From Bacteroidales bacterium (GTDB taxonomy: Bacteria; Bacteroidota; Bacteroidia; Bacteroidales; UBA932), in the NCBI GenBank assembly GCA_017550525.1, contig JAFZOU010000043.1, positions 1 through 40,947 on the forward strand: a stretch of 40,947 nt of DNA. Reading direction: 5' to 3'. Positions 514 through 37,842 of this stretch are shown here, piece after piece. Position 1 is the stretch's first letter. The number at the start of each line of letters is the position of its first letter. The notes below the pieces were generated by a model, which worked only from the letters and a program-made list of their open reading frames with translations, made no database searches and was not told the DNA's origin. The position numbers and the translations under genes are program-made.

Positions 514-2586
514 TCAGAACTTATAAGAGAGGGTTTTAAGGTCACAGCTGGAGCCGCCGTAAAGGAGCGTATAGTCACCCTTCAGGGGCACCATATTCTG
601 TGCCTCCTCATCCCACCACAGGAATGTCTCGTCAGTGAGCGGGATGCTAACGTTAACGGTCTGTCCTGCGGGGACTGCTACGCGCTTGAAACCGCGGAGA
701 GTCTTGATGGGACCTTCATTATCTGAAGGGCGGGAAATGTAGAGCTGAACCACCTCAGAGCCATCTACGGCACCGGTATTGGTGACCGGAATCACCAGGG
801 AGCCGCGCCCAACGGATGCATCTCCATACTCAAAAGTGGTGTAGCTGAGGCCGTATCCAAACGGGTACAGGGGCTCACCGCGGAAGTAGCGGTATGTGTG
901 GCCTTCCATATTGTAGTCTTCCACGTCAGGGAGGTCTTCTACGCTCTTATAGAAGGTTACGGGAAGTTTGGCCGATGGATTGACGTCCCCAAAGAGGATA
1001 TCGGCAATGGCTGGCCCCCCTTCCTGCCCGGGATACCAGGCCTGGAGGATGGCGCTGCAGCTTTCCGTTTCCGGGACAAGGCCCATGGCGCTTCCGGAGA
1101 AGTTCACAAGGACCACCTTCTTTCCGGCGGCCTTGAGGCTCTTCAGAAGGTCACGCTGGACGGCCGGAAGTTCAATGTCCGTGCGGTCACCGCCCTCGAA
1201 TCCGGGCACTTCAACGGGCATTTCCTCGCCTTCGAAACGGGGTGAGATACCGCCTGCGAAGATGACGATATCGGTCCCATCAAGCTGGCCGATAACATCC
1301 CCTTCAAGGCCGTCAACAATGCCGCAGCCCTTGACATAAGTGATGCCCGGAATGCGCTCCTGAAGGGCTTCCAGGAGGGTTGTGGTATGGTTAGGAACTG
1401 GGTTGTAGTTACCCCACATCATCTCCTTGTCATTGGCGTTGGGGCCCACAACTGCAATGCGCTCCGTACCCTTCAGGGGAAGGATGCCGTCGTTTTGTAA
1501 AAGCACTATGGTCTCAGAAGCCATCCTGCGTGAAAGAGCCCTGTGCTCCGGGCTTTCCACAAGGGTGGAATCAAGGCTGTCCCAGGGGGAAACGTCATCC
1601 ATCTCTCCAAGGAGGATCCTCTCAGTGAGAATTTTCAGCACGGCACGGTCAAGGTCTTCAGGCTCCAGAAGGCCCTCTGCCGCTGCATCCGGAATGTATT
1701 TATAGGCAACTCCGCACTCCAGGTCAACGCCGTTTTTCACGGCGGCTGCAGCGGTTTCAGCGCCGGTCTTAAGGTAACCGTGGCGGCCTTCCATATAGAA
1801 ATCGTCAAGGGCCCAGCAGTCAGACACGACCATTCCCTTGAAGCCCCATTCTCCGCGGAGGATGTCTTTCACAAGATAGCTGTTTGCGCCACAGGGAACG
1901 CCCCTGAAGCGGTTGTAGGCGGTCATTACCTCCTCCACGCCCGCCTTTGTAACAAGGTCCTTGAAGGCCGGAAGATAGGTTTCGCGGAGATCGCGCTCAG
2001 ATACATCGGCATCAAAATGATGGCGGTTTTTCTCCGTGCCTGAATGCACTGCAAGGTGCTTTGCGCAGGCGTGGAGTTTCTTCACCGGGGCTTCGGAATC
2101 CCCCTGCAGTCCGCGCACCACGGCCATACCCATCACACCCGTGAGATAAGGGTCTTCTCCGTATGTTTCCATACCGCGGCCCCAGCGGGGATCACGGAAG
2201 ATATTGATATTGGGCGTCCAGAATGTAAGTCCCTGGTACCAGCCGCTCTCCTCGGCCATTTTGTGCTTGATGCGGGCTTCGTCGCTCACTACCGTGAAAA
2301 CCTCCTCCAGAAGGGGCTCATCAAAGGAGGCCGCCATGGCAATTGGCATGGGGAACACCGTTGCGGCGCCGTTACGGGCAACCCCGTGAAGGGCCTCGTT
2401 CCACCAGTTGTAACTCCTGATTCCAAGGCGTTCCACCCCGGGGGAATTATACACCATGAGGGAGGCTTTTTCTTCAAGTGTAAGTTGTTTCAGGATATCT
2501 TCGGCACGTTTTTGGGCCTTCTGCTCAGGGCTTTGGCAGGCCGCCAGCACCGCCACGGCAAGTGTTAGGAGGAGAATCTTTTTCAT
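514..2586 (-). CDS. GH3 family beta-xylosidase/beta-glucosidase lipoprotein
   Basis: Glycoside hydrolase family 3 enzyme of 690 residues. It starts with a lipoprotein signal peptide (MKKILLLTLAVAVLAAC, lipobox LAAC), so it should be membrane-anchored. The N-terminal TIM-barrel domain contains WWNEALHGVAR, WTPNINIFRDPRWGRGMETYGEDP and the nucleophile motif GMVVSDCWALDD (D256); the SDC form is common in beta-xylosidase-like GH3 members. The second domain contains RFEGEE, a likely acid/base region, followed by GGDRTDIELP. A fibronectin-III-like domain (YPFGYGLSYTTFEY onward) closes the protein. The start at 2586 is chosen over an in-frame extension to 2745, because the extension would precede the signal peptide and would translate the intergenic repeats at 2640-2723. 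Xylosidase versus glucosidase specificity cannot be read from sequence. It is convergent with the GH20 fragment. Confidence 0.9.
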   Translation of the reverse strand: MKKILLLTLAVAVLAACQSPEQKAQKRAEDILKQLTLEEKASLMVYNSPGVERLGIRSYNWWNEALHGVARNGAATVFPMPIAMAASFDEPLLEEVFTVVSDEARIKHKMAEESGWYQGLTFWTPNINIFRDPRWGRGMETYGEDPYLTGVMGMAVVRGLQGDSEAPVKKLHACAKHLAVHSGTEKNRHHFDADVSERDLRETYLPAFKDLVTKAGVEEVMTAYNRFRGVPCGANSYLVKDILRGEWGFKGMVVSDCWALDDFYMEGRHGYLKTGAETAAAAVKNGVDLECGVAYKYIPDAAAEGLLEPEDLDRAVLKILTERILLGEMDDVSPWDSLDSTLVESPEHRALSRRMASETIVLLQNDGILPLKGTERIAVVGPNANDKEMMWGNYNPVPNHTTTLLEALQERIPGITYVKGCGIVDGLEGDVIGQLDGTDIVIFAGGISPRFEGEEMPVEVPGFEGGDRTDIELPAVQRDLLKSLKAAGKKVVLVNFSGSAMGLVPETESCSAILQAWYPGQEGGPAIADILFGDVNPSAKLPVTFYKSVEDLPDVEDYNMEGHTYRYFRGEPLYPFGYGLSYTTFEYGDASVGRGSLVIPVTNTGAVDGSEVVQLYISRPSDNEGPIKTLRGFKRVAVPAGQTVNVSIPLTDETFLWWDEEAQNMVPLKGDYTLLYGGSSCDLKTLSYKF

Positions 2587-2606
2587 ACAGGTTATCAGTT
2601 TGAACA

Positions 2607-2614
2607 CAAATATA
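2607..2614 (-). promoter_or_regulatory. Possible -7 promoter element of the GH3 gene
   Basis: On the minus strand this reads TATATTTG, a match to the Bacteroidota -7 consensus TAnnTTTG, 20 nt before the GH3 start codon. No convincing -33 TTG is seen at the right distance, so this is tentative. Confidence 0.35.
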
Positions 2615-2639
2615 ATCAATTCCCTCCTTAATTCCTCAC

Positions 2640-2671
2640 CCGTCCAGATTTTGGGGCGTTTTTCAGGACGG
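2640..2671 (+). repeat. Intergenic repeat unit 1 with inverted ends
   Basis: A 32-nt unit beginning CCGTCCAGATTTTG and ending GGACGG, so its ends CCGTCC/GGACGG are inverted. A second copy follows 51 nt downstream. It lies between the divergent GH3 gene and the gene at 2793. Confidence 0.75.
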
Positions 2672-2690
2672 ACAGCGCAATTTACAGGCC

Positions 2691-2723
2691 CCGTCCAGAT
2701 TTTGAGCCATTTTCCCGGACAGG
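2691..2723 (+). repeat. Intergenic repeat unit 2 with inverted ends
   Basis: Shares the first 14 bases CCGTCCAGATTTTG and the terminal GGACnGG with the unit at 2640-2671, while the middle differs. Extended by one base on each side its ends are also inverted (CCCGTCC / GGACAGGG, imperfect). Confidence 0.75.
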
Positions 2724-2755
2724 GCAGTAGGGAAGCAGTCCACATAGTGGAATAG

Positions 2756-2787
2756 TTGCAGGATTATCAAATTTGTGCTAACTTTGC
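2756..2787 (+). promoter_or_regulatory. Promoter of the 2793-8581 operon (-33 TTG, -7 TAACTTTGC)
   Basis: TTG at 2756-2758 and TAACTTTG at 2779-2786 are separated by 20 nt, the usual Bacteroidota spacing. The start codon at 2793 is only six bases past the -7 element, so the transcript should have almost no leader. Confidence 0.65.
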
Positions 2788-2792
2788 AAGAT

Positions 2793-4907
2793 ATGGGAAA
2801 AAGGTTTACCATAGTGGCCGTCACGGCCGTGGCCATTCTTCTTGCAGGCATAGCGTTCGCTGTGTCAAGGCTTTACGCCCCGGGGAAGGGAGAATCCCGC
2901 AGCCAGATGCCTCAGGGCTGGAGCGTTCTCAGCGCCATTCCTTCAGACGCCGTGGCGGTTTTTGTATTTGACGGCTCCTCCAAGGCCGTAAAAGTCCTGG
3001 CCGATTCAACGGGCCTTCTTACGGCGGCAATCGCCCCGGACAGCCCCGCCCTTATGGACTTTATAAGGAGTATCGGCAAAAACAAAATGGCCATTTCCCT
3101 TCACAACAGCGGTTCCCTGGTGCCCCTTGTGGCCGCAGAGATCCCGCTGCCGGATTCCCTCACAAGGGTATTGGCCCTTAACACAGGCCTCAAGCTCCAG
3201 GAAAAGGACGGGTACCTGATTGCCTCTAAGTCAGAGACATTCGTGAAGGCATCGGCCCGCAATCTGGAGGAAGGGACTTCCATCATGGGCTCAAAGAGCC
3301 TCCTGGGCCTCATTCCCAAGGTTTCGGCCCCGGCGGTCCTTCTTGTAAACCATTCCCACGCACCCAAGATTTCAGATGTTTACGCCTCCTCAAAAATGCG
3401 CAAGCAGGCGGGTTTCCTTAAAAACCTTGCCCCCTGGAGTGCCTGGACCATCCAGGTCCCGGAAAAGGACAATATAACCCTTAAGGGTATCAGTGCGCAG
3501 GGAGATGCTGCCGGAAGCTGGTTTGCTGCTTTCAAAGGCAGGGGTGCCCAGGATGCCCTTTTCCCTGAGGCCCTCCCTTATTTTACAGGCGCTGCCATAA
3601 GCCTTCCAATAGAGGACCTGGATGCCGTAATAGCAGCCCGCAGGGCTTTCGAGGACGGTAATGGCCGCCTCAATGCCTTCAACAAGGCCCTCAAGGCCCG
3701 TCCTGCCAAAGACATAACCGTTGAGGAATGGATAAGGAGTCTTCAGCCCAAGGAACTTGTAAAGGCTTCCTTCAGGGCCGATGACGGCGTGAAGCATGAG
3801 GTCCTGCTTCTCCGCTCCGGGAAAGACCTGAAGATTGGAAAGGAGCAGTCAAACCCCTACAGGGACTGTCTTGCAGCGGTTTTTGGAGAAGATTTCAGGA
3901 CTGCCGACTCAATATGCGCTTCCGTAGGAACTAAGTGGGTTGTCTTTGGAGACACCCCTTCAGTCCAGGCATTCCAGGATAAGGAATTCCTGGGGTATAC
4001 CCTGAAGGACAGGATGAGCGATGCCTCCATCCAGGCTCCAAGGGGATTTGTGGCTTATGCGTCCCTTTCTGATGAACCTGCCGTTATCCAGGATATCCTT
4101 GGAGCCAGGCTGGCCGCTCCTGTGGAAGCTTTTGCAAAAGGTGCGGGGTATGCTCCAGCAGTAATATCGGCCGATCTTTCAGGAGAACTTCCATCAATTA
4201 ATGTGCGCCTTGACAAACGCGCCCTGAAGGGCACCAAGGTCCAGGTGCTTGAAAGGGACACCACCGTAGTGGTTCCCGCAGGCTATTTCCCCGTAAGGAA
4301 CCATGCCACAGGAAAAATCAACCAGCTATACCAGAACAGCCACGGCTCCATCTGTCTTAACGACGAAAACGGCAAGGGCGTCTGGGGCATTCCTTTCAAG
4401 GGAAGCCTCTGCGGCAGGGTTCAGAGCATAGATTACTTTGCAAATGGGAAAATCCAGTTCCTGTTTGCCTCAGGAAGCAAATTATACCTGCTTGACCGCC
4501 TTGGCCACTGGGTGAACGGATTCCCCGTAGAAGTTGGGAAACCCATCCTGCTTGGCCCGGACGTATATGATTTCACGGGTGCAGGCGGCTACACCGTAAT
4601 GGTACTGCATAAGGACAATACCCTTGAAAGATACAACCTCCACGGCAAGAAGCCGGAGGGCTGGAAGGGTATTGCCGCTCCGGAAACAGTCAAGAATCTC
4701 CCGGAACTCATAGAGGTCAAGGATAAGAGGTTCTGGGCTGTACGTACATCGGTGCGCACCCTCATCTATCCCTTTGAAGGAGGAGATCCCGTCGTGAGCG
4801 GTGATGGCGGAAAGATGATAAAACCGGATTCCAAACTTACCGTAACCTCCAAGGGTGTAAGCGCAGAATGCTACGACGGAAAAGAACGTGACTTTAAATT
4901 GAACTAA
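2793..4907 (+). CDS. Membrane-anchored protein of unknown function
   Basis: I do not recognise a named family with confidence. The 704-residue protein has one N-terminal hydrophobic segment (RFTIVAVTAVAILLAGIAFAV) and then a long soluble region, so it is likely anchored in the inner membrane facing the periplasm. The first part (WSVLSAIPSDAVAVFVFDGS) recalls DUF3352-like Bacteroidales proteins. The last 200 residues have repeated short strands (GKINQLYQNSHGSICLND, GKIQFLFASGSKLYLLD, YTVMVLHKDNTLERYNL), suggesting a beta-propeller-like fold. The ATG at 2793 is chosen over a GTG at 2775 because the -7 promoter element overlaps the longer start. It is the first gene of an operon with the acyl-CoA ligase, dCMP deaminase and S41 protease; this gives no clear functional hint. 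Confidence 0.8.
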   Translation: MGKRFTIVAVTAVAILLAGIAFAVSRLYAPGKGESRSQMPQGWSVLSAIPSDAVAVFVFDGSSKAVKVLADSTGLLTAAIAPDSPALMDFIRSIGKNKMAISLHNSGSLVPLVAAEIPLPDSLTRVLALNTGLKLQEKDGYLIASKSETFVKASARNLEEGTSIMGSKSLLGLIPKVSAPAVLLVNHSHAPKISDVYASSKMRKQAGFLKNLAPWSAWTIQVPEKDNITLKGISAQGDAAGSWFAAFKGRGAQDALFPEALPYFTGAAISLPIEDLDAVIAARRAFEDGNGRLNAFNKALKARPAKDITVEEWIRSLQPKELVKASFRADDGVKHEVLLLRSGKDLKIGKEQSNPYRDCLAAVFGEDFRTADSICASVGTKWVVFGDTPSVQAFQDKEFLGYTLKDRMSDASIQAPRGFVAYASLSDEPAVIQDILGARLAAPVEAFAKGAGYAPAVISADLSGELPSINVRLDKRALKGTKVQVLERDTTVVVPAGYFPVRNHATGKINQLYQNSHGSICLNDENGKGVWGIPFKGSLCGRVQSIDYFANGKIQFLFASGSKLYLLDRLGHWVNGFPVEVGKPILLGPDVYDFTGAGGYTVMVLHKDNTLERYNLHGKKPEGWKGIAAPETVKNLPELIEVKDKRFWAVRTSVRTLIYPFEGGDPVVSGDGGKMIKPDSKLTVTSKGVSAECYDGKERDFKLN

Positions 4908-4926
4908 AACCTACACCATCCATATT

Positions 4927-6582
4927 ATGGAATTCAAATCAGTAAACAAAACATTGCAGGAGAGCTTTATCCGCAACTGGGACCGTCCGGCCCTAACCAA
5001 CTACCAAGGTATGACGCTTGCATACCGTGAAGTGGCCCTGAGGATTGCCAAACTCCACATTGCCTTTGAGCAGTGCGGCCTCAAGAAGGGTGACAAAGTT
5101 GCAATTTGCTCCCGCAATCAGGCCAACTGGGGCGTCAGTTTCCTCGCTGCCATAACTTATGGCGCAGTGGCCGTCCCCATCCTCCATGAATTCAAGCCCG
5201 GAAACATACACTATCTGGTAAACCACTCGGATTCCCGCGTCCTGTTTGTGGACGACGTAATCTGGGAAGGCCTTCAGGCCGAGGAAATGCCGGATCTTCA
5301 GGTTGTTGTCCAGATCAATACGTTCAAGTTCCTCTACGTTGCTTCTGAAGATCTTTCATACGTCCGTGAGCACCTCAACGAGGAATTCGGCAAGCGTTAT
5401 CCAAACACCTTCGGCCAGGAAGACCTCAATTATTATGAGGATTCCGCAGAGGAGCTTGCCATAATCAACTACACCTCCGGCACCTCCGGCTTCTCAAAGG
5501 GCGTAATGCTGCCCTACAGGGCCCTCTATTCCAATATCGAGTTTGCCGCAAAGGACGCCTGCCCCATGCTTAAGGCCGGTATGAACGTAGTGAGCATGCT
5601 GCCATCGGCCCATATGTACGGCATGATGTTCGAGTTCCTCTTTGAGATGACTATCGGCATGCACGTACACTTCCTCAGCCGCGTCCCCAGCCCCAAGATC
5701 ATCATGCAGGCATTCCAGGAGATTCATCCGGACATCATTATCGCTGTGCCTCTGGTGATGGAAAAGGTGTACAAGAGCAAGCTCAAACCGCTTATTGACA
5801 AGACAAAACTCTACAGGCGCATTCCCATCCTCGGCCCCACCATCGAGAAAAAGTTCTGCACAGAACTTACCAACTCCTTCGGCGGTCAGTTTGAGGAGGT
5901 TATCCTTGGAGGAGCCGCCTTCAACCCTGAGGTGGAGAAGTTCCTCCACAAGATTGGCTTCCACTATACCGTTGGTTACGGCATGACTGAGTGCGCTCCT
6001 ATCATCGGCTATGCCCACTGGGACAAAGTGAAGGTTGGAAGCGCCGGCCGCGCGGCCCTCAATATGGAAATCCGCATTGATTCCGACGATCCCCGTAACA
6101 TTCCCGGAGAGGTTCAGGTAAAGGGCCCCAACGTGTGTCTTGGCTATTACAGGAACGAGGAAGCTACCAAGGATTCTTTTACCGATGACGGCTGGTTCCG
6201 CACCGGAAACATGGGTATCGTTGATGAAGACGGTTACCTCTTCCTCAAGGGCCGTTCAAAGTGCATGGTGCTTGGCCCTTCTGGCCAGAATATCTATCCT
6301 GAGGAGGTTGAAGCTACCATCAATAACTTTGTGTATGTAGTTGACTCTCTGGTGGTTGAGGACGACGGCGGCCTTACCGCCCTCATCTATCCGGACTGGC
6401 ATCAGGGAGAGCTTGACGGCTTCACAAGGGCCGATTTCCGCAAGCGCATCTGCGGCCTTCTTCCCGCAATTAACGACGAACTCCCCAAGTACGCCCAGAT
6501 CAAGAAGATAGAGCTCATGCCGGAAGACTTCGAGCGCACCCCCAAGAAGAGCATCAAGCGTTATCTGTATCAGAGAAACTAA
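4927..6582 (+). CDS. Long-chain fatty acid--CoA ligase (AMP-binding enzyme)
   Basis: ANL-superfamily enzyme of 551 residues that activates fatty acids with ATP and transfers them to CoA, a cytoplasmic step in lipid uptake or recycling. The P-loop motif INYTSGTSGFSKGVMLP lies near residue 180, the second core motif VGYGMTECAPIIGY near residue 350, and the linker/hinge region with GRSKCMVLGPSGQNIYPEEVE near residue 440. The late lysine region RTPKKSIKRYL fits the conserved catalytic Lys of the C-terminal domain. The usual RTGD motif reads RTGNMG: the conserved Asp that contacts the AMP ribose is Asn (N428). It sits 19 nt after the upstream gene and 6 nt before the dCMP deaminase gene, in one operon. 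The family is certain; the exact acyl chain length is not. Confidence 0.9.
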   Translation: MEFKSVNKTLQESFIRNWDRPALTNYQGMTLAYREVALRIAKLHIAFEQCGLKKGDKVAICSRNQANWGVSFLAAITYGAVAVPILHEFKPGNIHYLVNHSDSRVLFVDDVIWEGLQAEEMPDLQVVVQINTFKFLYVASEDLSYVREHLNEEFGKRYPNTFGQEDLNYYEDSAEELAIINYTSGTSGFSKGVMLPYRALYSNIEFAAKDACPMLKAGMNVVSMLPSAHMYGMMFEFLFEMTIGMHVHFLSRVPSPKIIMQAFQEIHPDIIIAVPLVMEKVYKSKLKPLIDKTKLYRRIPILGPTIEKKFCTELTNSFGGQFEEVILGGAAFNPEVEKFLHKIGFHYTVGYGMTECAPIIGYAHWDKVKVGSAGRAALNMEIRIDSDDPRNIPGEVQVKGPNVCLGYYRNEEATKDSFTDDGWFRTGNMGIVDEDGYLFLKGRSKCMVLGPSGQNIYPEEVEATINNFVYVVDSLVVEDDGGLTALIYPDWHQGELDGFTRADFRKRICGLLPAINDELPKYAQIKKIELMPEDFERTPKKSIKRYLYQRN

Positions 6583-31818: not shown

Positions 31819-34029
31819 ATGAAAAAGACCCCTCAAACCTATCCCTGGAAGTTCGCCTCAGTAGGCGGAACCGTACGTGTGAATATCCAAAGCGGTGAGG
31901 ATATCCGTCACCTTGGGGAACTTGACCGCAAGCTGTGGACCGTCCTGAGCTGCCCCACTCAAGGCCTTGAGTTTGATGAAAAGACCCTCAAGTACATTGA
32001 CGTGGACAATGACGGCAAAATCCGTGTGGATGAAGTCATCAAGACCGCCCAGTGGCTCACCCGTGTCATCAAGGACGCAGACCTTCTCCTGGAAGGCCGT
32101 GACGTGCTGGAGTTCAGTAACTTCAATGAGGAAGATCCTGATGGCGCAAGGCTCCTTTCATCGGCCCGCCAGATCCTGAAAAACCTGGGAGAAGAGAAGG
32201 AGTCCGTTTCCGTAGAGGATACGGCCGATTTCACCAAGATCTTCGCCGGTACCCTCTTCAACGGTGACGGCATCATCACTCCTGCCTCGGCAGGGGAGGA
32301 TGAGGCTCTTGCAAAGCTCATAGAGACCATTGCAGGCATTTCATCGGCCTTAGACCGCAGCGGCGTGCCCGGCATCACCGCAGACCATATTGAGGCATTC
32401 TACGCCGCCTGCGCGGATTTCAAGGCCTGGAAGGAAGCCGGCACAAAGGAAGTGTTCCCGTTCGGGGACAAGACCCCCGATGCCCTTGCCGCCGTTGAGG
32501 CCCTGAAGGACAAGGTGGCCGATTACTTTATGCGCTGCAAGCTCATCGGCTTTGACGAAGCAACATCGGCAGCCCTTGACGTGAATGTGGACAAGATTGC
32601 CGCCATCGAGGGCAACCTTGCCGCCGCTCAGGACCAGATTGGCGCCCAGCCCCTTGCAAAGCCTTCAAAGGACGGAAAACTGAAACTGGACGCCGTGAAC
32701 CCTGCCTGGAAGGCCGCAGTTGACGCTATGAAGGAACTCGTTGGTGCACCCAAGGTGCTTGACGAGGCTGCCTGGAATGAGATCCTTGGAAAGTTCGGCC
32801 CTTACTGCGCCTGGGTTGGTGCTAAGAAGGGCGGGGAAGTGGAAGGCCTTGGCCTTGAGTGCGTGGAGGCCATCCTCAAGGAAGACAAGAAAGCCGCCCT
32901 CCTTGCACTCATTGAAAAGGACAAGGAAGAGGAAGCCAACGCCCTCTCAATTGAGGAAGTTGGGAAACTTGTGAGCCTTTACAGGAACTTCTACCGTTTC
33001 CTTAATAACTATGTAGTTCTGGCCGATTTTTACGATCCCGAGAAGAAGGCCATCTTCCAGGCCGGACGCCTGTATATCGATCAGCGTTCAACGGACCTCT
33101 GCGTAAAGGTTGCAGGTCCCGCCCCGGAAATCTCCTCCCTCAGCGGAATGTACATCCTCTACTGCGCCTGCACCAGTGAGAAACTTGGCAAGTCCTTCAA
33201 CATTGCCGCAGTTCTCACGGACGGTGACGTGGATGGCCTCCGTGAAGGCAAGAACGCTGTGTTCTATGACCGTGAAGGCAATGACTACACCGCAAAGGTT
33301 ATTGCAATAGTTGACAACCCCATCTCCGTGCGCCAGGCTTTCTGGAGCCCCTACAAGAAGGTTGCACGTATGATCAACGACCGAATTGACAAGAAGGCCG
33401 CAGAGAAGAACGAGAAATCAATGGCCGGCCTTACCGCCGCAACCAATACCGCAGCCGACGGAAAGGCTCCCGCCGCTCCGTTCGACATCGCAAAATATGC
33501 CGGTATCTTTGCCGCAGTAGGTATGGCCGTAGGCCTTATCGGCGCAGCTCTGGCAGGCGTAGTGGCCGCCCTGAAGGGCATCACCTGGTGGCAGGCTCTG
33601 ATCATCATTGCAGTGGTCCTTCTCCTTATTTCCGGTCCTTCCATGTTCATCGCCTGGAGGAAACTCCGCAGGCGTGACCTTGGTCCCGTGCTCAACGCCA
33701 ACGGCTGGGCAATCAATGCCAAGGCCCTTGTGAACACCAAGTTCGGCAAAACTCTCACTTCACTTGCCAAGTTCCCCAAACTTACGGCAGTTGATGAGAA
33801 AGCCCGCAAGGCCCGTAACCGCCGCCGCTTCTGGTGCTGCTTCTGCAGTCTCATTATCGCAGCCCTTCTGTGCCTGTGGCTGTTCAATTTCCTGGCGCCC
33901 AAGTGCCCCAGCCCTCTCAAGCGCTATCAGCCCGCTCCGGAAACTGTCATTCCGAGCGAAGCCGAGGAATCTCCTGAGGCGGCCGATGATGTCATTCCCG
34001 TCGAAGCCCCGGAATCTCCTGCCGAATAA
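31819..34029 (+). CDS. EF-hand-containing membrane protein of unknown function
   Basis: A 736-residue protein I cannot assign to a named family. A textbook EF-hand calcium loop sits at residues 61-72 (DVDNDGKIRVDE: Asp at 1, 3 and 5, Gly at 6, Ile at 8, Glu at 12). A looser candidate is FNGDGIITPASAGED near 150. A large, mainly helical, Ala/Lys/Glu-rich region follows. Two adjacent membrane segments lie at about 559-613 (AGIFAAVGMAVGLIGAALAG; ALIIIAVVLLLISGPSMFIAW) and one Cys/Trp-rich segment near 671-692. There is no signal peptide, so the large N-terminal part is probably cytoplasmic. The last 28 residues (VIPSEAEESP, VIPVEAPESP) are translated dispersed repeats. It is followed after 2 nt by an ATPase gene, suggesting the two act together. 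Confidence 0.8.
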   Translation: MKKTPQTYPWKFASVGGTVRVNIQSGEDIRHLGELDRKLWTVLSCPTQGLEFDEKTLKYIDVDNDGKIRVDEVIKTAQWLTRVIKDADLLLEGRDVLEFSNFNEEDPDGARLLSSARQILKNLGEEKESVSVEDTADFTKIFAGTLFNGDGIITPASAGEDEALAKLIETIAGISSALDRSGVPGITADHIEAFYAACADFKAWKEAGTKEVFPFGDKTPDALAAVEALKDKVADYFMRCKLIGFDEATSAALDVNVDKIAAIEGNLAAAQDQIGAQPLAKPSKDGKLKLDAVNPAWKAAVDAMKELVGAPKVLDEAAWNEILGKFGPYCAWVGAKKGGEVEGLGLECVEAILKEDKKAALLALIEKDKEEEANALSIEEVGKLVSLYRNFYRFLNNYVVLADFYDPEKKAIFQAGRLYIDQRSTDLCVKVAGPAPEISSLSGMYILYCACTSEKLGKSFNIAAVLTDGDVDGLREGKNAVFYDREGNDYTAKVIAIVDNPISVRQAFWSPYKKVARMINDRIDKKAAEKNEKSMAGLTAATNTAADGKAPAAPFDIAKYAGIFAAVGMAVGLIGAALAGVVAALKGITWWQALIIIAVVLLLISGPSMFIAWRKLRRRDLGPVLNANGWAINAKALVNTKFGKTLTSLAKFPKLTAVDEKARKARNRRRFWCCFCSLIIAALLCLWLFNFLAPKCPSPLKRYQPAPETVIPSEAEESPEAADDVIPVEAPESPAE
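33945..34019 (+). repeat. Two in-frame copies of a dispersed repeat in the EF-hand protein tail
   Basis: Copies at 33945-33974 and 33990-34019 each begin TGTCATTCC and end GGAATCTCC with a CGAAGCC core; the period is 45 nt. They match the repeat between dnaX and lptB and encode VIPSEAEESP and VIPVEAPESP. Confidence 0.78.
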
Positions 34030-34031
34030 CT

Positions 34032-35177
34032 ATGGACACCCCGTTCCCGTTTTCGCAGTATGTGACCGGTAACAAGTTTATCGGCCGGAAACAGGACGTG
34101 ACTCTCCTTGGGAACCTCCTTACCCAGGGAGAGCACGTCTCCATCTTCGAGCCCCCGAAGACGGGCAAGACCTCCCTTATCCAGCAGACGCTCTTTTCCT
34201 TAAGGGTAACTGGCCGTACCTTTGCCGTAGGGCAGTTTAGCGCCATGAATATCCGTTCGCAGGAGGATTTCCTCCTACGGCTTGGATCCACCGTCCTCAA
34301 GATGGTGGCTTCAAGCCCGGCGGAGTTCGAGGCCCTTGTGAAGCAGTATCTCCAGGGAACGCACTTTGTCTTTGACGCGGATGAATTCACCCAGACCGGG
34401 CAGGCTGTGTCCCTTGGCTGGCCTTTGGACAAGGATGACGCCCTTGCAATGCTTCGTCTTCCTTTTGCCGTGGCCGATGAAAGGCAGCAGAAGATGATCC
34501 TCATCATCGAGGAATTCCACTGCATAGGCAACCTGGAGGACCCTGACGCAATCCTTCGGCCACTATCGGCCGTTATCAAGGAGCAGAAGGGAAGGAACTT
34601 CTCCTTTATCTTCTCCGGCAGCTCCGTTAATGCAATGAGCGCCATCTTCACGGGAAGCGTCCTTTTCAGCCGCCGCGTGGAGAGGGTGTCTCTTTCACTG
34701 GCGCCGGAGGAGGAAGTGACGGAGCATCTTCACCGCGGGTTCCTATCCAGCGGTAAGGTAGTGGAAAAGCGTCTCCTGCAAGGAGTGTACAACCTCTTCC
34801 GCGGGCACCTCTGGTATATCAATCACCTCATTGCCATCGCGGATTCCCTCAGCCGCGGCTACATCATGGAACCGCTCCTGGTAGAGGCCCTGGAAAGCCT
34901 TGTGAGTATCCACGAGCCATCCTTCCGCGGCATTATGAACAGCCTCACAACCCATCAGGTAAGCCTCCTGAAGGCCACTCTTGACGGAGTTACCCGCTTC
35001 AGCGCGTCTGAGGTGATTCGTAAGTACGGGCTCAATTCATCGGCCAATGTCAAGAGGGTGAAGGAAGCCCTTATGAAGAAAGAAGTGATAATGCTGGACC
35101 AGAATGACAACCCCGTCTTGGAAGATCCGCTCTTCGAGTACTGGGTACGCAAGTACTACTTTGAGATGAAGGACTAG
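34032..35177 (+). CDS. P-loop ATPase (archaeal-ATPase/STAND-like)
   Basis: ATPase of 381 residues. It begins FSQYVTGNKFIGRKQDVTLL, like the 'GR..E...L' entry of archaeal-type ATPases. Walker A EPPKTGKTSLIQQ lies near residue 39-47 and Walker B MILIIEEFH near residue 156. A sensor-like FSFIFSGSS follows. The C-terminal 100 residues form a helical, winged-helix-like region (FSASEVIRKYGLNSSANVKRVKEALMKKEV), ending in DNPVLEDPLFEYWVRKYY, the usual end of this ATPase group. Family members act as ATP-driven switches, often in stress or defence, but no specific role is known. It starts 2 nt after the EF-hand membrane protein, which may be its membrane partner. Confidence 0.8.
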   Translation: MDTPFPFSQYVTGNKFIGRKQDVTLLGNLLTQGEHVSIFEPPKTGKTSLIQQTLFSLRVTGRTFAVGQFSAMNIRSQEDFLLRLGSTVLKMVASSPAEFEALVKQYLQGTHFVFDADEFTQTGQAVSLGWPLDKDDALAMLRLPFAVADERQQKMILIIEEFHCIGNLEDPDAILRPLSAVIKEQKGRNFSFIFSGSSVNAMSAIFTGSVLFSRRVERVSLSLAPEEEVTEHLHRGFLSSGKVVEKRLLQGVYNLFRGHLWYINHLIAIADSLSRGYIMEPLLVEALESLVSIHEPSFRGIMNSLTTHQVSLLKATLDGVTRFSASEVIRKYGLNSSANVKRVKEALMKKEVIMLDQNDNPVLEDPLFEYWVRKYYFEMKD

Positions 35178-35193
35178 CGCGCCGGCGTTTGTT

Positions 35194-35332
35194 TTGCCGT
35201 GTTGACGCGTAAAACACGTATAAGGCCGATTTCACTGCCAACACGGCAAGGAAATCGGCCTTATTGGTCAAAAACGTTGCCGTGTTGGCATTAAAAACTC
35301 CATTTTGGGCAATCTGAGTGTCAACACGGCAA
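35194..35332. repeat. Four alternating copies of TTGCCGTGTTG(A/G)C
   Basis: Copies at 35194-35206 (+), 35236-35249 (-), 35277-35290 (+) and 35320-35332 (-). Copies 1 and 4 are exact inverted matches (…GAC form), as are copies 2 and 3 (…GGCA form). Centres are about 42, 41 and 42 bp apart and symmetric around 35263. A perfect 14-bp inverted repeat, ATAAGGCCGATTTC (35220-35233) / GAAATCGGCCTTAT (35251-35264), encloses copy 2. Confidence 0.85.
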
Positions 35333-35344
35333 AGTGCAAAACTT

Positions 35345-35381
35345 TGGGCGAGGTTGGATTTCGTTCCACCAACCACGCCCA
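35345..35381. repeat. Hairpin 1 of the GGGCGAGGTTGG family
   Basis: TGGGCGAGGTTGG (35345-35357) pairs with CCAACCACGCCCA (35369-35381), one mismatch, 11-nt loop. Confidence 0.8.
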
Positions 35382-35420
35382 CCTAAATGCCATTATAAAT
35401 GCTTCTGATCCACATCTTCT

Positions 35421-35455
35421 GGGCGAGGATGGCCACAGAAAAACCAACCTCGCCC
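35421..35455. repeat. Hairpin 2 of the GGGCGAGGTTGG family
   Basis: GGGCGAGGATGG (35421-35432) pairs with CCAACCTCGCCC (35444-35455), one mismatch, 11-nt loop. Its right arm is perfectly complementary to the left arm of hairpin 1. Confidence 0.8.
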
Positions 35456-35521
35456 GGATTAACAGGCCTTAGTGTTCTCCGGAGCAAGTCCTGCCACCTG
35501 CAGCCGGTACTGACCACGTAC

Positions 35522-35580
35522 GTATAATGCCCTTTTCGTACACAGTGAGTACCCGACGGTACTGAGTATGTGCATTATAC
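35522..35580. repeat. Nested inverted repeat GTATAATGC/GCATTATAC
   Basis: The outer 9-bp arms are perfect; inside, AGTACC (35548-35553) pairs with GGTACT (35558-35563) around CGAC. Another GGTACTGA lies just upstream at about 35506. Confidence 0.7.
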
Positions 35581-35603
35581 CCCCAAAAGTGCAAGCCGTG
35601 GTA

Positions 35604-35644
35604 GTGTCTTTTACCCCTGTATCAGGAATGAGGGTAAACGACAC
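35604..35644. repeat. 13-bp inverted repeat
   Basis: GTGTCTTTTACCC (35604-35616) pairs with GGGTAAACGACAC (35632-35644), one mismatch, 15-nt loop. CAAGCC (35592-35597) and GGCTTG (35668-35673) can pair around it. Confidence 0.7.
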
Positions 35645-35794
35645 CATGCGGCCTCAGAAGTAGCTGTGGCTTGGGTAGGCGTCGTTTAAGTTTCGGACGG
35701 TCAGGCCATAATTCTCCAACGCCACGGGGACAACCGTTAAGGGGTGGAAAACAGACACATAGTTTTGCACTTGATTCGTTTTTTGGCGGAAAAA

Positions 35795-35826
35795 TTTGTG
35801 TTTCTGAGATTTATTCGTATCTTTGC
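35795..35826 (+). promoter_or_regulatory. Promoter of rplU-rpmA
   Basis: TTTG at 35795-35798 and TATCTTTGC at 35818-35826 with 19-nt spacing, a perfect consensus pair. The leader of about 88 nt contains a hairpin, CCTGCC (35864-35869) / GGCAGG (35876-35881), a possible ribosomal-protein leader. Confidence 0.82.
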
Positions 35827-35917
35827 AGTCCCAAATTTTAGATGACCGCTGAGCTCATCAAGACCTGCCGCAGAGGGCAGGCGCTTACGGCCCAAAACTT
35901 TTAACAGTTTTTGAACG

Positions 35918-36229
35918 ATGTACGCAATCGTAGACATTGCAAGCCAGCAGTTCAAAGTAGAGGCTGGAATGGATATCTTCGTAAACCGCCTCCAGGCAAA
36001 GAACGGAGAATCCGTAGAGTTCAACAAGGTTCTTCTCATTGATGCAGAAGGCGCCGTAAAGGTTGGAACTCCGTATGTAGAGGGAGCAGTTGTGAAGGCT
36101 ACCGTCCTTGACGATGACGCCAAAGCAAAGAAAGTGCTCGTATTCAAGAAAATCCGTCGCAAGGGATTCCAGACTCTGAACGGTCACCGTCAGAAGCTCA
36201 CCAAGATCCACATCGACGCTATCGCTTAA
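35918..36229 (+). CDS. rplU: 50S ribosomal protein bL21
   Basis: Large-subunit protein of 103 residues. MYAIVDIASQQFKVEAGMDIFV and the GTPYVEGAVVKATVLDD strand are standard bL21 (shown in short pieces), and the C-terminal RRKGFQTLNGHRQKLTKIHI binds rRNA. Length is normal. It is first in an operon with rpmA, 20 nt downstream, the usual bacterial order. A consensus promoter and a structured leader precede it. Confidence 0.96.
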   Translation: MYAIVDIASQQFKVEAGMDIFVNRLQAKNGESVEFNKVLLIDAEGAVKVGTPYVEGAVVKATVLDDDAKAKKVLVFKKIRRKGFQTLNGHRQKLTKIHIDAIA

Positions 36230-36249
36230 CTTTTTAAAGACAGAAGATT

Positions 36250-36510
36250 ATGGCACACAAGAAAGGTCAATCCAGTTCAAAGAACGGCCGTGAGAGTCAT
36301 TCCAAACGTCTTGGTATCAAGAAGTTCGGCGCAGAGGTCGTAAAGGCAGGAAACATTATCGTGCGTCAGCGCGGTACTCAGCACAACCCTGGTCTTAATG
36401 TGGGTATGGGCAAGGATCACACCCTTTATGCCCTTATTGACGGCACTGTCAAGTTCACCCGCAAGCGTGACGACAAATCCTTCGTGAGCGTAGTTCCCTT
36501 TGAGAACTAG
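36250..36510 (+). CDS. rpmA: 50S ribosomal protein bL27
   Basis: Large-subunit protein of 86 residues beginning [22 protein letters not shown], with the conserved [21 protein letters not shown] core (given in two short pieces). Its N-terminal tail reaches toward the peptidyl-transferase centre. There is no cleavable N-terminal extension of the kind found in Firmicutes: the mature MAHKKG start is encoded directly. It follows rplU by 20 nt, and a hairpin lies 21 nt after its stop. Confidence 0.96.
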
Positions 36511-36531
36511 CCGCTGGGGAAACAGTTAATC

Positions 36532-36560
36532 AAGGAGGACTAGTACGGTCCTCCTTTATT
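36532..36560 (+). terminator. Hairpin between rpmA and serS
   Basis: AAGGAGGAC (36532-36540) pairs perfectly with GTCCTCCTT (36548-36556), loop TAGTACG, then TATTATT. The T tract is weak, so some read-through into serS is likely; no separate serS promoter is evident. Confidence 0.65.
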
Positions 36561-36570
36561 ATTGAAAAAT

Positions 36571-37842
36571 ATGCTTACACTCAAAACCTTACGCGAAGAT
36601 CCGGAACTCGTAATCCGGAAACTTGCAAAAAAGCATTTCGATGCCCGTGAGATTGTTGCGGACGTAATAGCGATGGATGACCGCCGTAAAGCCATCCAGC
36701 AGGAATCTGACGCCCTCCTTGGCAAGCAGAAGAAGGCAGCCGCCGCTATCGGCCAGCTTATGAAGGAAGGAAAGAAGGAAGAGGCAGAAGCCGCAAAGGC
36801 TGAAGTAGCCGCCCTCAAGGCCCGTTCTCAGGAACTCCTTCAGGAGGCCGATTCCAACGCCGCAGCCCTTCAGGACAAACTTGTCCTCCTTCCCAACCTT
36901 CCCTGTGACCTTGTACCGGAAGGAGCAGGCGCAGAGGATAACCTGGTTGTGAAGATGGGCGGCCCCGAGGTCCAGCTTCCTGAAAACGCCCTTCCCCACT
37001 GGGAACTTGCAAAGAAGTATGACATCATTGACTTCGACCTTGGCGTAAAGATCACCGGCACCGGTTTCCCCGTATATAAGGGCAAGGGCGCAAAACTCCA
37101 GAGGGCCCTTATCAACTACTTCCTTGAGAGGAATACCGCTGCAGGTTATCTTGAGGTGGAGCCTCCCGTGATGGTGAATTCGGCATCCGGCTTTGGTACC
37201 GGCCAGCTTCCTGACAAGGAAGGCCAGATGTACCACGCCACCCTGGACAACTTCTATATGGTCCCTACCGCAGAGGTTCCCGTCACCAATATCTTCCGTG
37301 ACGTTATACTTGGTGCCGACGACTTCCCCCAGAAGCTTACCGCATACACTCCCTGCTTCCGCCGTGAGGCCGGTTCCTACGGCAAGGACGTCCGCGGCCT
37401 CAACCGCCTGCACCAGTTTGATAAGGTAGAGATCGTGCGCGTGGAGAAGCCGGAGAACAGTTATGCAGCCCTTGATGAGATGGTTGCACACGTAGAGAGC
37501 CTTGTGAACGAACTTGGCCTCAAGTACCGCATCCTCAGGCTCTGCGGCGGTGATATGAGCTTTACATCGGCCATCACCTATGACTTCGAGCTCTGGAGCG
37601 CAGCCCAGGGCCGCTGGCTGGAGATTTCCTCAGTTTCCAACTTTGAGAGCTACCAGGCCAACCGCCTCAAGTGCCGCTACAAGGACGCAGACGGCAAGAT
37701 GCAGCTTGCCCACACCCTCAACGGCAGTTCCCTGGCTCTGCCCCGCGTAGTTGCAGCCCTGCTGGAAGACAACCAGAAGGATGGCTACATCGAGATCCCT
37801 GAGTGCCTCCGTCCTTACACCGGATTTGACAGGATAGACTAA
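36571..37842 (+). CDS. serS: Seryl-tRNA synthetase
   Basis: Class II aminoacyl-tRNA synthetase of 423 residues that charges tRNA-Ser. The N-terminal coiled-coil arm (about 30-100, rich in Lys/Glu/Ala) contacts the tRNA long variable arm. Motif 2 TPCFRREAGSYGKDVRGLNR and motif 3 TLNGSSLALPRVVAALLEDN are intact, and the segment FYMVPTAEVPVTNIFRD is typical. The ATG at 36571 is preferred to a TTG at 36562 because MLTLKTLREDPE matches the family start. Confidence 0.96.
   Translation: MLTLKTLREDPELVIRKLAKKHFDAREIVADVIAMDDRRKAIQQESDALLGKQKKAAAAIGQLMKEGKKEEAEAAKAEVAALKARSQELLQEADSNAAALQDKLVLLPNLPCDLVPEGAGAEDNLVVKMGGPEVQLPENALPHWELAKKYDIIDFDLGVKITGTGFPVYKGKGAKLQRALINYFLERNTAAGYLEVEPPVMVNSASGFGTGQLPDKEGQMYHATLDNFYMVPTAEVPVTNIFRDVILGADDFPQKLTAYTPCFRREAGSYGKDVRGLNRLHQFDKVEIVRVEKPENSYAALDEMVAHVESLVNELGLKYRILRLCGGDMSFTSAITYDFELWSAAQGRWLEISSVSNFESYQANRLKCRYKDADGKMQLAHTLNGSSLALPRVVAALLEDNQKDGYIEIPECLRPYTGFDRID

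Follow-up and report, generated by a model that had tools for sequence, protein, structure and literature searches.

The 139 bp array at 35194-35332 of the window (the whole stretch of DNA analysed, 40,947 nucleotides) is probably a non-autonomous element of the REP/BIME/TIR kind that belongs to a RAYT-like transposase, with four putative sites carried on a phased, bendable duplex. The array is dispersed through its genome, linked to one transposase family, variable in its sites from locus to locus, constant in period and phased to the DNA helix. Moreover, it is present or absent at one and the same locus in different relatives, and arrays lie at the junctions of rearrangements. The initial annotation had proposed that the sites themselves were under selection. 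This is partly supported, with the qualification that the sites are carried by a mobile repeat with ties to a RAYT-like transposase, and not by a local regulatory array.

Structure of the array at the window locus

The window contains four exact sites, every one of them inside the array. The outer sites, site 1 (35194-35206, + strand) and site 4 (35320-35332, - strand), carry TTGCCGTGTTGAC (ending GAC), and the inner sites, site 2 (35237-35249, - strand) and site 3 (35277-35289, + strand), carry TTGCCGTGTTGGC (ending GGC). The + - + - arrangement first described was recovered at exactly the same positions, with its centre of symmetry at 35263, and centre-to-centre distances of 43, 40 and 43 bp agree with the helical-type spacing that had been claimed. 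Allowing up to 3 mismatches raised the number of matches in the window to 30, where shuffled sequence averaged 19 (sd 4.65, maximum 29), so the 26 weaker ones are near chance expectation. A chance origin of the array was rejected on this site search.

The whole element (35194-35332, + strand) is an imperfect palindrome that reads site 1, spacer, site 2, linker, site 3, spacer, site 4. Both inner spacers (35207-35236 and 35290-35319) show phasing of A/T and G/C, and the central linker (35250-35276) is the most strongly phased part. A repeat search also returned the perfect 14-bp inverted repeat said to be nested around site 2 (35220-35233 / 35251-35264). By eye, this repeat is lost or partial in the copies on contigs C29, C111 and C135 of the same genome and is therefore not a fixed feature of the element.

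The element begins 16 bp past the stop codon of an ATPase-like gene (34032-35177, + strand; sub-threshold Pfam AAA match). The downstream neighbour, outside the element, is rplU (ribosomal protein L21; 35918-36229, + strand), approximately 585 bp away. A second + - + - array (35345-35455) lies directly behind the first and looks unrelated to it, being made of GGGCGAGGTTGG / CCAACCACGCCC, which recur 75 bp on, and having no 10.2-bp phasing. This stretch matches other genomes of the genus and one further place in the own genome (C60:104186-104412). Further palindromic repeats at 35480-35780, between the array and rplU, have matches elsewhere in the own genome on C60, C106, C129 and C47. The impression is of an intergenic region in which several repeat families have piled up.

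Dispersed copies in the own genome

A whole-genome search of the rumen Bacteroidales genome from which the window derives (G000) found 15 full copies of the element (138-140 bp, window copy included) and a half copy on C102. Site matches with at most 1 mismatch numbered 53, compared with 12 for a reversed-pattern control, and 50 of them fall within the 15 full-length copies. In the genome search for the 13-mer that the initial annotation suggested, the window array is thus not the sole location of the site. The copies resemble one another only as far as the outer edges of sites 1 and 4, the exception being C111a and C111b, which have approximately 30 bp more flank in common. In 10/15 copies one edge is no more than 20 bp from a neighbouring ORF's stop codon, and an automatic ORF call marked two copies as overlapping with ORFs of 120 aa or more. 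No target-site duplication was found at the 15 copies, the longest flank match being 0 or 1 bp.

Presence, absence and rearrangement in relatives

The window locus was searched for in 13 genomes. The array is in place in two of these, G200 and G125, where the rplU side lies 7.8 kb from the array and on another contig, respectively. In G200 the roughly 7.8 kb of other DNA between array and rplU (C90:2734-10508) begins directly after site 4. Seven relatives with collinear flanks have no array at this locus. Four of them (G180, G184, G201 and G202) have flanks that are 78-95% identical, and the gap that replaces 613-640 bp measures 42, 42, 1 and 86 bp, respectively. The upstream homologue is more distant (66-70%) in the other three (G028, G148 and G197), where rplU is collinear some 700-800 bp away and a scan of that intervening DNA revealed no array. 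The remaining four genomes (G019, G126, G133 and G141) have two flank matches that are not collinear and so are uninformative. Absence of the array from close relatives with conserved synteny had been named in advance as evidence against selection on the sites, and taken literally these seven loci are such a case. Mobility or loss accounts for them, because all seven genomes match the array elsewhere. G180 and G184 are related to the own genome at roughly the same distance as G200.

Copies of the array are also found where gene order differs between relatives. A 2.4-kb segment on C9 that lies between two inverted copies has the opposite orientation in G125. Around the transposase gene described below, the gene blocks between copies are ordered differently in G200. 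G180 has no transposase block at this locus, where its array is down to one site pair, as expected from contraction by one 83-bp unit. Homologous recombination between copies is sufficient for these rearrangements and transposase action is unneeded. Since closely related species have inverted or exchanged blocks where the arrays sit, the arrays may drive genome rearrangement in rumen Bacteroidales.

A 'scar', in which the start of site 1 is joined to site 4, is common to G200 and G184 at one locus. A scan of seven genomes recovered its exact sequence nowhere else, apart from one instance within an intact array, and precise excision was therefore not relied on as an explanation.

A separate repeat family built on GTCGCAGGT was observed at L028 818, L056 7822, L105 and L106. 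It occupies gene 3′ ends where the array of the own genome sits in other species, L105 and L106 being the syntenic spots of copies C9a and C9b. Those gene 3′ ends look like landing places common to both repeat families.

A RAYT-like transposase gene

One copy of the element (C9:55334-55471) lies directly 3′ of a transposase-like gene of 304 aa (C9:55478-56389, minus strand), with 3 bp between the end of the copy and the stop codon of the gene. Residues H50 and H52 (HxH) and Y107 are invariant in all 19 aligned proteins. In the predicted model (pLDDT 92.4, pTM 0.90), the order of strands and helices fits the fold of HUH enzymes with a single catalytic tyrosine (Y1), and the C-terminal part is helix or coil throughout, bar isolated strand residues. 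The own protein has no Pfam or NCBIfam match at 1e-3. Weak matches were obtained for other family members, 3/19 to Y1_Tnp (best 5.5e-4) and 1/19 to REP_Tyr_transpos (1.7e-6), and a paralogue on C78 (E 3.3e-8 to the own protein) passes the Y1_Tnp cut-off. Alignment to E. coli RayT with hhalign paired the HxH and Y motifs, weakly (E 0.078, probability 0.7%), and a PDB sequence search with the protein returned no meaningful match. On these features the protein is a candidate HUH/tyrosine transposase, and it is termed RAYT-like and not RAYT.

About ten further candidate Y1-type transposase-like matches were observed in the 2.4-Mb own genome (C78, C9:40861, C109, C47, C80, C49, C111, C60 and C76), three above the Y1_Tnp cut-off and several weak. 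Among 15 loci scanned around such candidates, only L028 shows a four-site array.

Arrays beside related transposase loci

Two homologue searches contributed 23 and 19 loci, the first after the removal of L061 (24 to 23), a short match from another phylum. Together with the own locus these make 43, or 35 distinct loci once 8 duplicates were removed. They were scanned for four alternating sites, w, rc(w), w, rc(w), placed 34-49 bp apart, which allowed periods of 68-98 bp. The scan returned 81 array hits in 223 kb of locus DNA versus none in 669 kb of mononucleotide shuffles; 20 of the 81 stem from two tandem loci, L078 and L083. At least one array is present in the fetched flanks of 32 of the 35 distinct loci, own included (31 in one scan, where the L076 array touches the gene end). 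The flanks fetched for L049, L059 and L080 contain no detectable array, and the nearest array is more than 1 kb from the transposase gene in L046 and L060. Arrays start within 300 nt 3′ of the gene in 25/35 loci. Of the 33 loci whose 5′ DNA extends for 750 nt or more, 15 have an array that ends within 600 nt 5′ of the gene. Cognate repeats thus flank the transposase gene, as in RAYT / TnpAREP systems.

Individual loci depart from the common arrangement. L083 has tandem repeats of the 83-bp unit behind its transposase gene (2460-3912), and the locus contains 13 overlapping four-site hits. The transposase genes of L042 and L054 have one in-frame stop each, with arrays still alongside. The two most phased 138-bp stretches of L059 (scores 9.6 and 7.3) lie just 3′ of its transposase, and this region (5087-5370) is possibly a diverged array.

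The architecture of the arrays is uniform and their letters are not. All 162 measured periods are 82-84 bp; measured between 12-bp cores, the linker is 31 bp in 28/31 loci and the inner spacers are 27-29 bp. The site itself varies by locus, from GCCGTGTTGACA in the own genome to GCCGCGTTTACA, GCCGGATATCCA, GACACTTGCGCA and TCCAACCGTACA in others. Site distance is correlated with protein distance (Mantel r = 0.65, 0/9999 permutations, 31 loci), and among the 27 loci at least 55% identical to the own protein the correlation is not significant (r = 0.22, 766/9999), both statistics coming from elements of common ancestry, so that loci are not independent. The 32 loci with arrays are therefore a natural set in which the recognition letters are separated from the architecture, period and helical phase staying the same.

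The association also holds between genomes. The exact site pair of the G185 type (GCCGGATATCCA) was found in just one of 200 genomes, mostly metagenome-assembled, and this was G185 itself, in 7 places; the G185 transposase is the one whose locus has the GCCGGATATCCA site. Arrays of the window type (E <=1e-8) occur in at least nine of the 200, a lower bound with at most 4 candidates scored per genome. Seven of these nine hold a transposase of at least 57% identity. The other two, each about 80% complete, have array matches with no transposase at E 1e-20 (G184) or with a best transposase of 37% identity (G133). If the sites are read by the cognate protein, the G185 protein would be expected on GCCGGATATCC arrays and not on TTGCCGTGTTGRC arrays.

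Helical phasing of the spacers

Tests for phasing were post hoc, the runs of A/T having first been noticed by eye in spacers placed side by side. In 31 elements A/T power was 6.5 at 10 bp and 5.2 at 10.5 bp, compared with 1.0 and 0.9 once the spacers had been shuffled around the fixed sites, and none of 300 shuffles reached the observed value at either period. A weaker peak exists at 8.5 bp (3.4 versus 0.9). In 122 flanking stretches the power was 1.1 at both 10 and 10.5 bp. For a set of 32 elements (31 loci and the window copy), the best period of A/T versus G/C is 10.20 bp (bootstrap 10.15-10.20). L078 was left out of this set, its register being flipped, and also out of the folding sets below, and L083 was left out of some counts. 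Taken singly, 28/32 elements peak at 10.0-10.3 bp and four lie outside this range. None of the 32 departs by more than 26 degrees from zero phase at the central dyad, and masking the sites puts the peak at 10.25 bp. All 15 copies in the own genome peak at 10.1-10.3 bp, and the window array is the top-phased 138-bp stretch of the 41 kb at 10.2 bp (16.3; next 9.0). Measured against 2,856 other stretches, 58/81 array hits score above the 99th percentile and 23 do not. However, the window stretch that scores 9.0 has no such array, and an unrelated E. coli stretch that starts inside yafJ and contains no array reaches 11.3, so phasing by itself is no marker of an array.

Transversions that keep the A/T or G/C class make up 41% of spacer differences among the 15 own copies (1294/3152), 21% in two neighbouring coding stretches from six genomes (804/3896; 437/2060), 11% in the sites (65/611) and 50% in 28 linkers compared between loci (2627/5258), all of these being pairwise counts and not independent events. 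The data favour two kinds of constraint, with spacers keeping their A/T-or-G/C class and sites keeping their letters. Compensated changes in a hairpin would likewise preserve base class, and folding was therefore scored against a null that keeps it.

Proposed recognition of the array and alternative explanations

We propose that the RAYT-like HUH/tyrosine transposase encoded at G000 C9:55478-56389 would spread the non-autonomous element. Each 12-13-bp site would be a recognition site for the enzyme, and the 10.2-bp phasing of the spacers would set all four on one face of a bendable, dyad-symmetric duplex. A multimeric complex, which we assume, would bind or wrap the four-site segment before strand cutting and copying. 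We infer binding of the sites by the transposase, bending or wrapping of the DNA and spreading of copies by the enzyme from the patterns above; by analogy with its relatives, transposition would proceed through single-stranded DNA. The initial annotation had offered two options, a DNA-binding protein that acts as a multimer and an RNA folded as a double hairpin. The former is favoured and the latter disfavoured by a period that stays at 82-84 bp, by the 10.2-bp phasing of the spacers and by the weakness of hairpin structure beyond the sites.

A stronger version of this proposal, which we put forward tentatively, is that recognition takes place on wrapped duplex, the four sites on their 139-bp dyad-symmetric segment with a 10.2-bp rhythm forming a nucleosome-like particle in a bacterium. 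Nucleosome-positioning DNA has a period and length similar to those of the 139-bp, 10.2-bp phased element. It is conceivable, with about the same reserve, that the sites would then be rewritten whenever transposase specificity changes and the bending code kept. Such particles may also organise gene 3′ ends and serve as recombination joints.

Recognition of single strands, as in REP systems, is a realistic if less than even prospect. Here sites 1+2 and 3+4 (or 1+4 and 2+3) would pair as hairpins to be read by the transposase, and the 10.2-bp rhythm would be secondary. Known TnpAREP enzymes do use folded single-stranded REPs (PMC8266576), and the predicted folds of both strands of the window array are much more stable than those of shuffled sequence (z = -7.5 and -6.1). 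However, stems are guaranteed by the inverted sites alone. With sites fixed and spacers dinucleotide-shuffled, mean z is -1.06 and -1.28 for the two strands (30 loci), and under the class-preserving null it is still -0.61 and -0.71 (standard errors 0.20 and 0.23; n=32), with the window element unremarkable at -0.4 and -0.1. From these small values, hairpin selection in the spacers is slight, though above zero. A central mini-hairpin in the linkers is weak (10/200 shuffles equal it) and none is evident in the inner spacers (58/200 shuffles reach it). A G.T-wobble strand bias between sites, sought as a sign of single-strand folding, was not consistent, many of the site differences being transversions. 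Nor is a GTAG-type foot visible by eye in the printed arrays, and large loops would be free to vary in length.

A main role as a docking site for DNA gyrase, such as some E. coli BIME-2 provide, or for a nucleoid protein, with the array managing supercoiling behind genes and merely being spread by the transposase, seems unlikely. The E. coli gyrase motif is symmetric, 130 bp long and has periodic GC arms, and BIME-2 elements are enriched in gyrase cuts (PMC6379681, as far as its text was available); the own element is likewise symmetric and phased at 139 bp, and its copies commonly lie close to stop codons, as noted above. However, its period is 10.20 and not 10.75 bp and its centre is phased too. 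Moreover, E. coli DNA on both sides of rayT has no 10.2-bp phasing (maximum 2.0) and scores at most 4.1 at 10.75 bp, and the change of site letters with the transposase is left unexplained.

A role in RNA, with a double hairpin that terminates transcription or stabilises mRNA at 3′ ends, is improbable. It would suit the position of the array just 3′ of genes and the strong predicted RNA folding, but the two strands fold alike, spacers conserve base class over pairing, and close relatives differ in whether the array is present. A described RNA family was rejected, as Rfam gave no family above threshold in 34000-36600, only two sub-threshold ones (best E 0.23).

An operator controlling the neighbouring rplU-rpmA genes, suggested by the position of the array upstream of rplU, is hardly credible for an element that lies ~585 bp away, has 14 further genomic places and is absent from seven collinear relatives; a locus-specific operator is contradicted by those other copies and empty loci.

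The transposase-linked mobile element therefore remains the best reading of the array. The literature examined describes RAYT enzymes, together with their repeats, as systems of single-stranded hairpins. The arrays raise two questions: whether some RAYT-type enzymes use wrapped duplex DNA, and how a transposase and all of its target copies shift specificity together.

Comparison with known systems

CRISPR arrays and integron attC sites were both dismissed by eye on account of the alternating orientation and inverted copy pairs. Searches of an open-access library of papers returned no description of a four-site phased array.

The REP/BIME/REPIN repeats of TnpAREP, such as the E. coli REPtron, are likewise dispersed palindromic repeats at 3′ ends in alternating orientation, and the 15 full copies described here are similarly numerous, dispersed, mostly intergenic and alternating. 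As in the REPtron, the arrays flank and match an HUH/tyrosine transposase gene, have locus-specific sequences and can grow in tandem (L083). Unlike the REPtron, the unit consists of four 12-13-bp sites at a fixed 82-84-bp period on 10.2-bp phased DNA, a phasing without counterpart beside E. coli rayT. The protein has 304 aa with an extra C-terminal part, whereas E. coli RayT has 165 aa. The GTAG/GTGG foot beside a short hairpin, typical of REP/BIME, was not seen in the printed arrays by eye.

TIRYT genes, or TIRtrons, were described in 2013 as RAYT-like genes with inverted repeats instead of REPs, some of which are self-complementary and repeated in the genome (PMC3733652, from the text available). 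Most of their repeats have GGGGWSAS in common, and the others are mutually unrelated. By eye, the listed site cores do not contain this motif; the definition allows other repeats too, so it is the motif alone that fails here. A four-site phased array like the own element is not described in the available TIRYT text (PMC3733652).

The gyrase motif (PMC6379681, text in part) is the closest described DNA pattern found. Like the own element, it and BIME-2 are symmetric, some 130-140 bp long and helically phased in GC content. However, its periodic regions, with a period of 10.75 bp, form two arms flanking a 36-bp central part, whereas the own element has a period of 10.20 bp and is phased through its centre, so it lacks the period and the two-arm layout of a strong gyrase site.

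Two TnpAY1 subclasses are also relevant, according to the accessible text of Quentin et al. 2018 (PMC6006769). Subclass 2.1 has a C-terminal helix-turn-helix and is reported there without REPs, and subclass 2.6 is mostly from Bacteroidetes and has 'atypical secondary structures'. Common to these subclasses and the own family are HxH and Y motifs, an added C-terminal domain, Bacteroidota hosts and atypical flanking repeats copied elsewhere in the genome. The own family may overlap subclass 2.6. Taken together, RAYT/REP, TIRYT/TIR and the Bacteroidetes subclass 2.6 are, in the available text of these sources, the nearest described systems (PMC6006769, PMC3733652).
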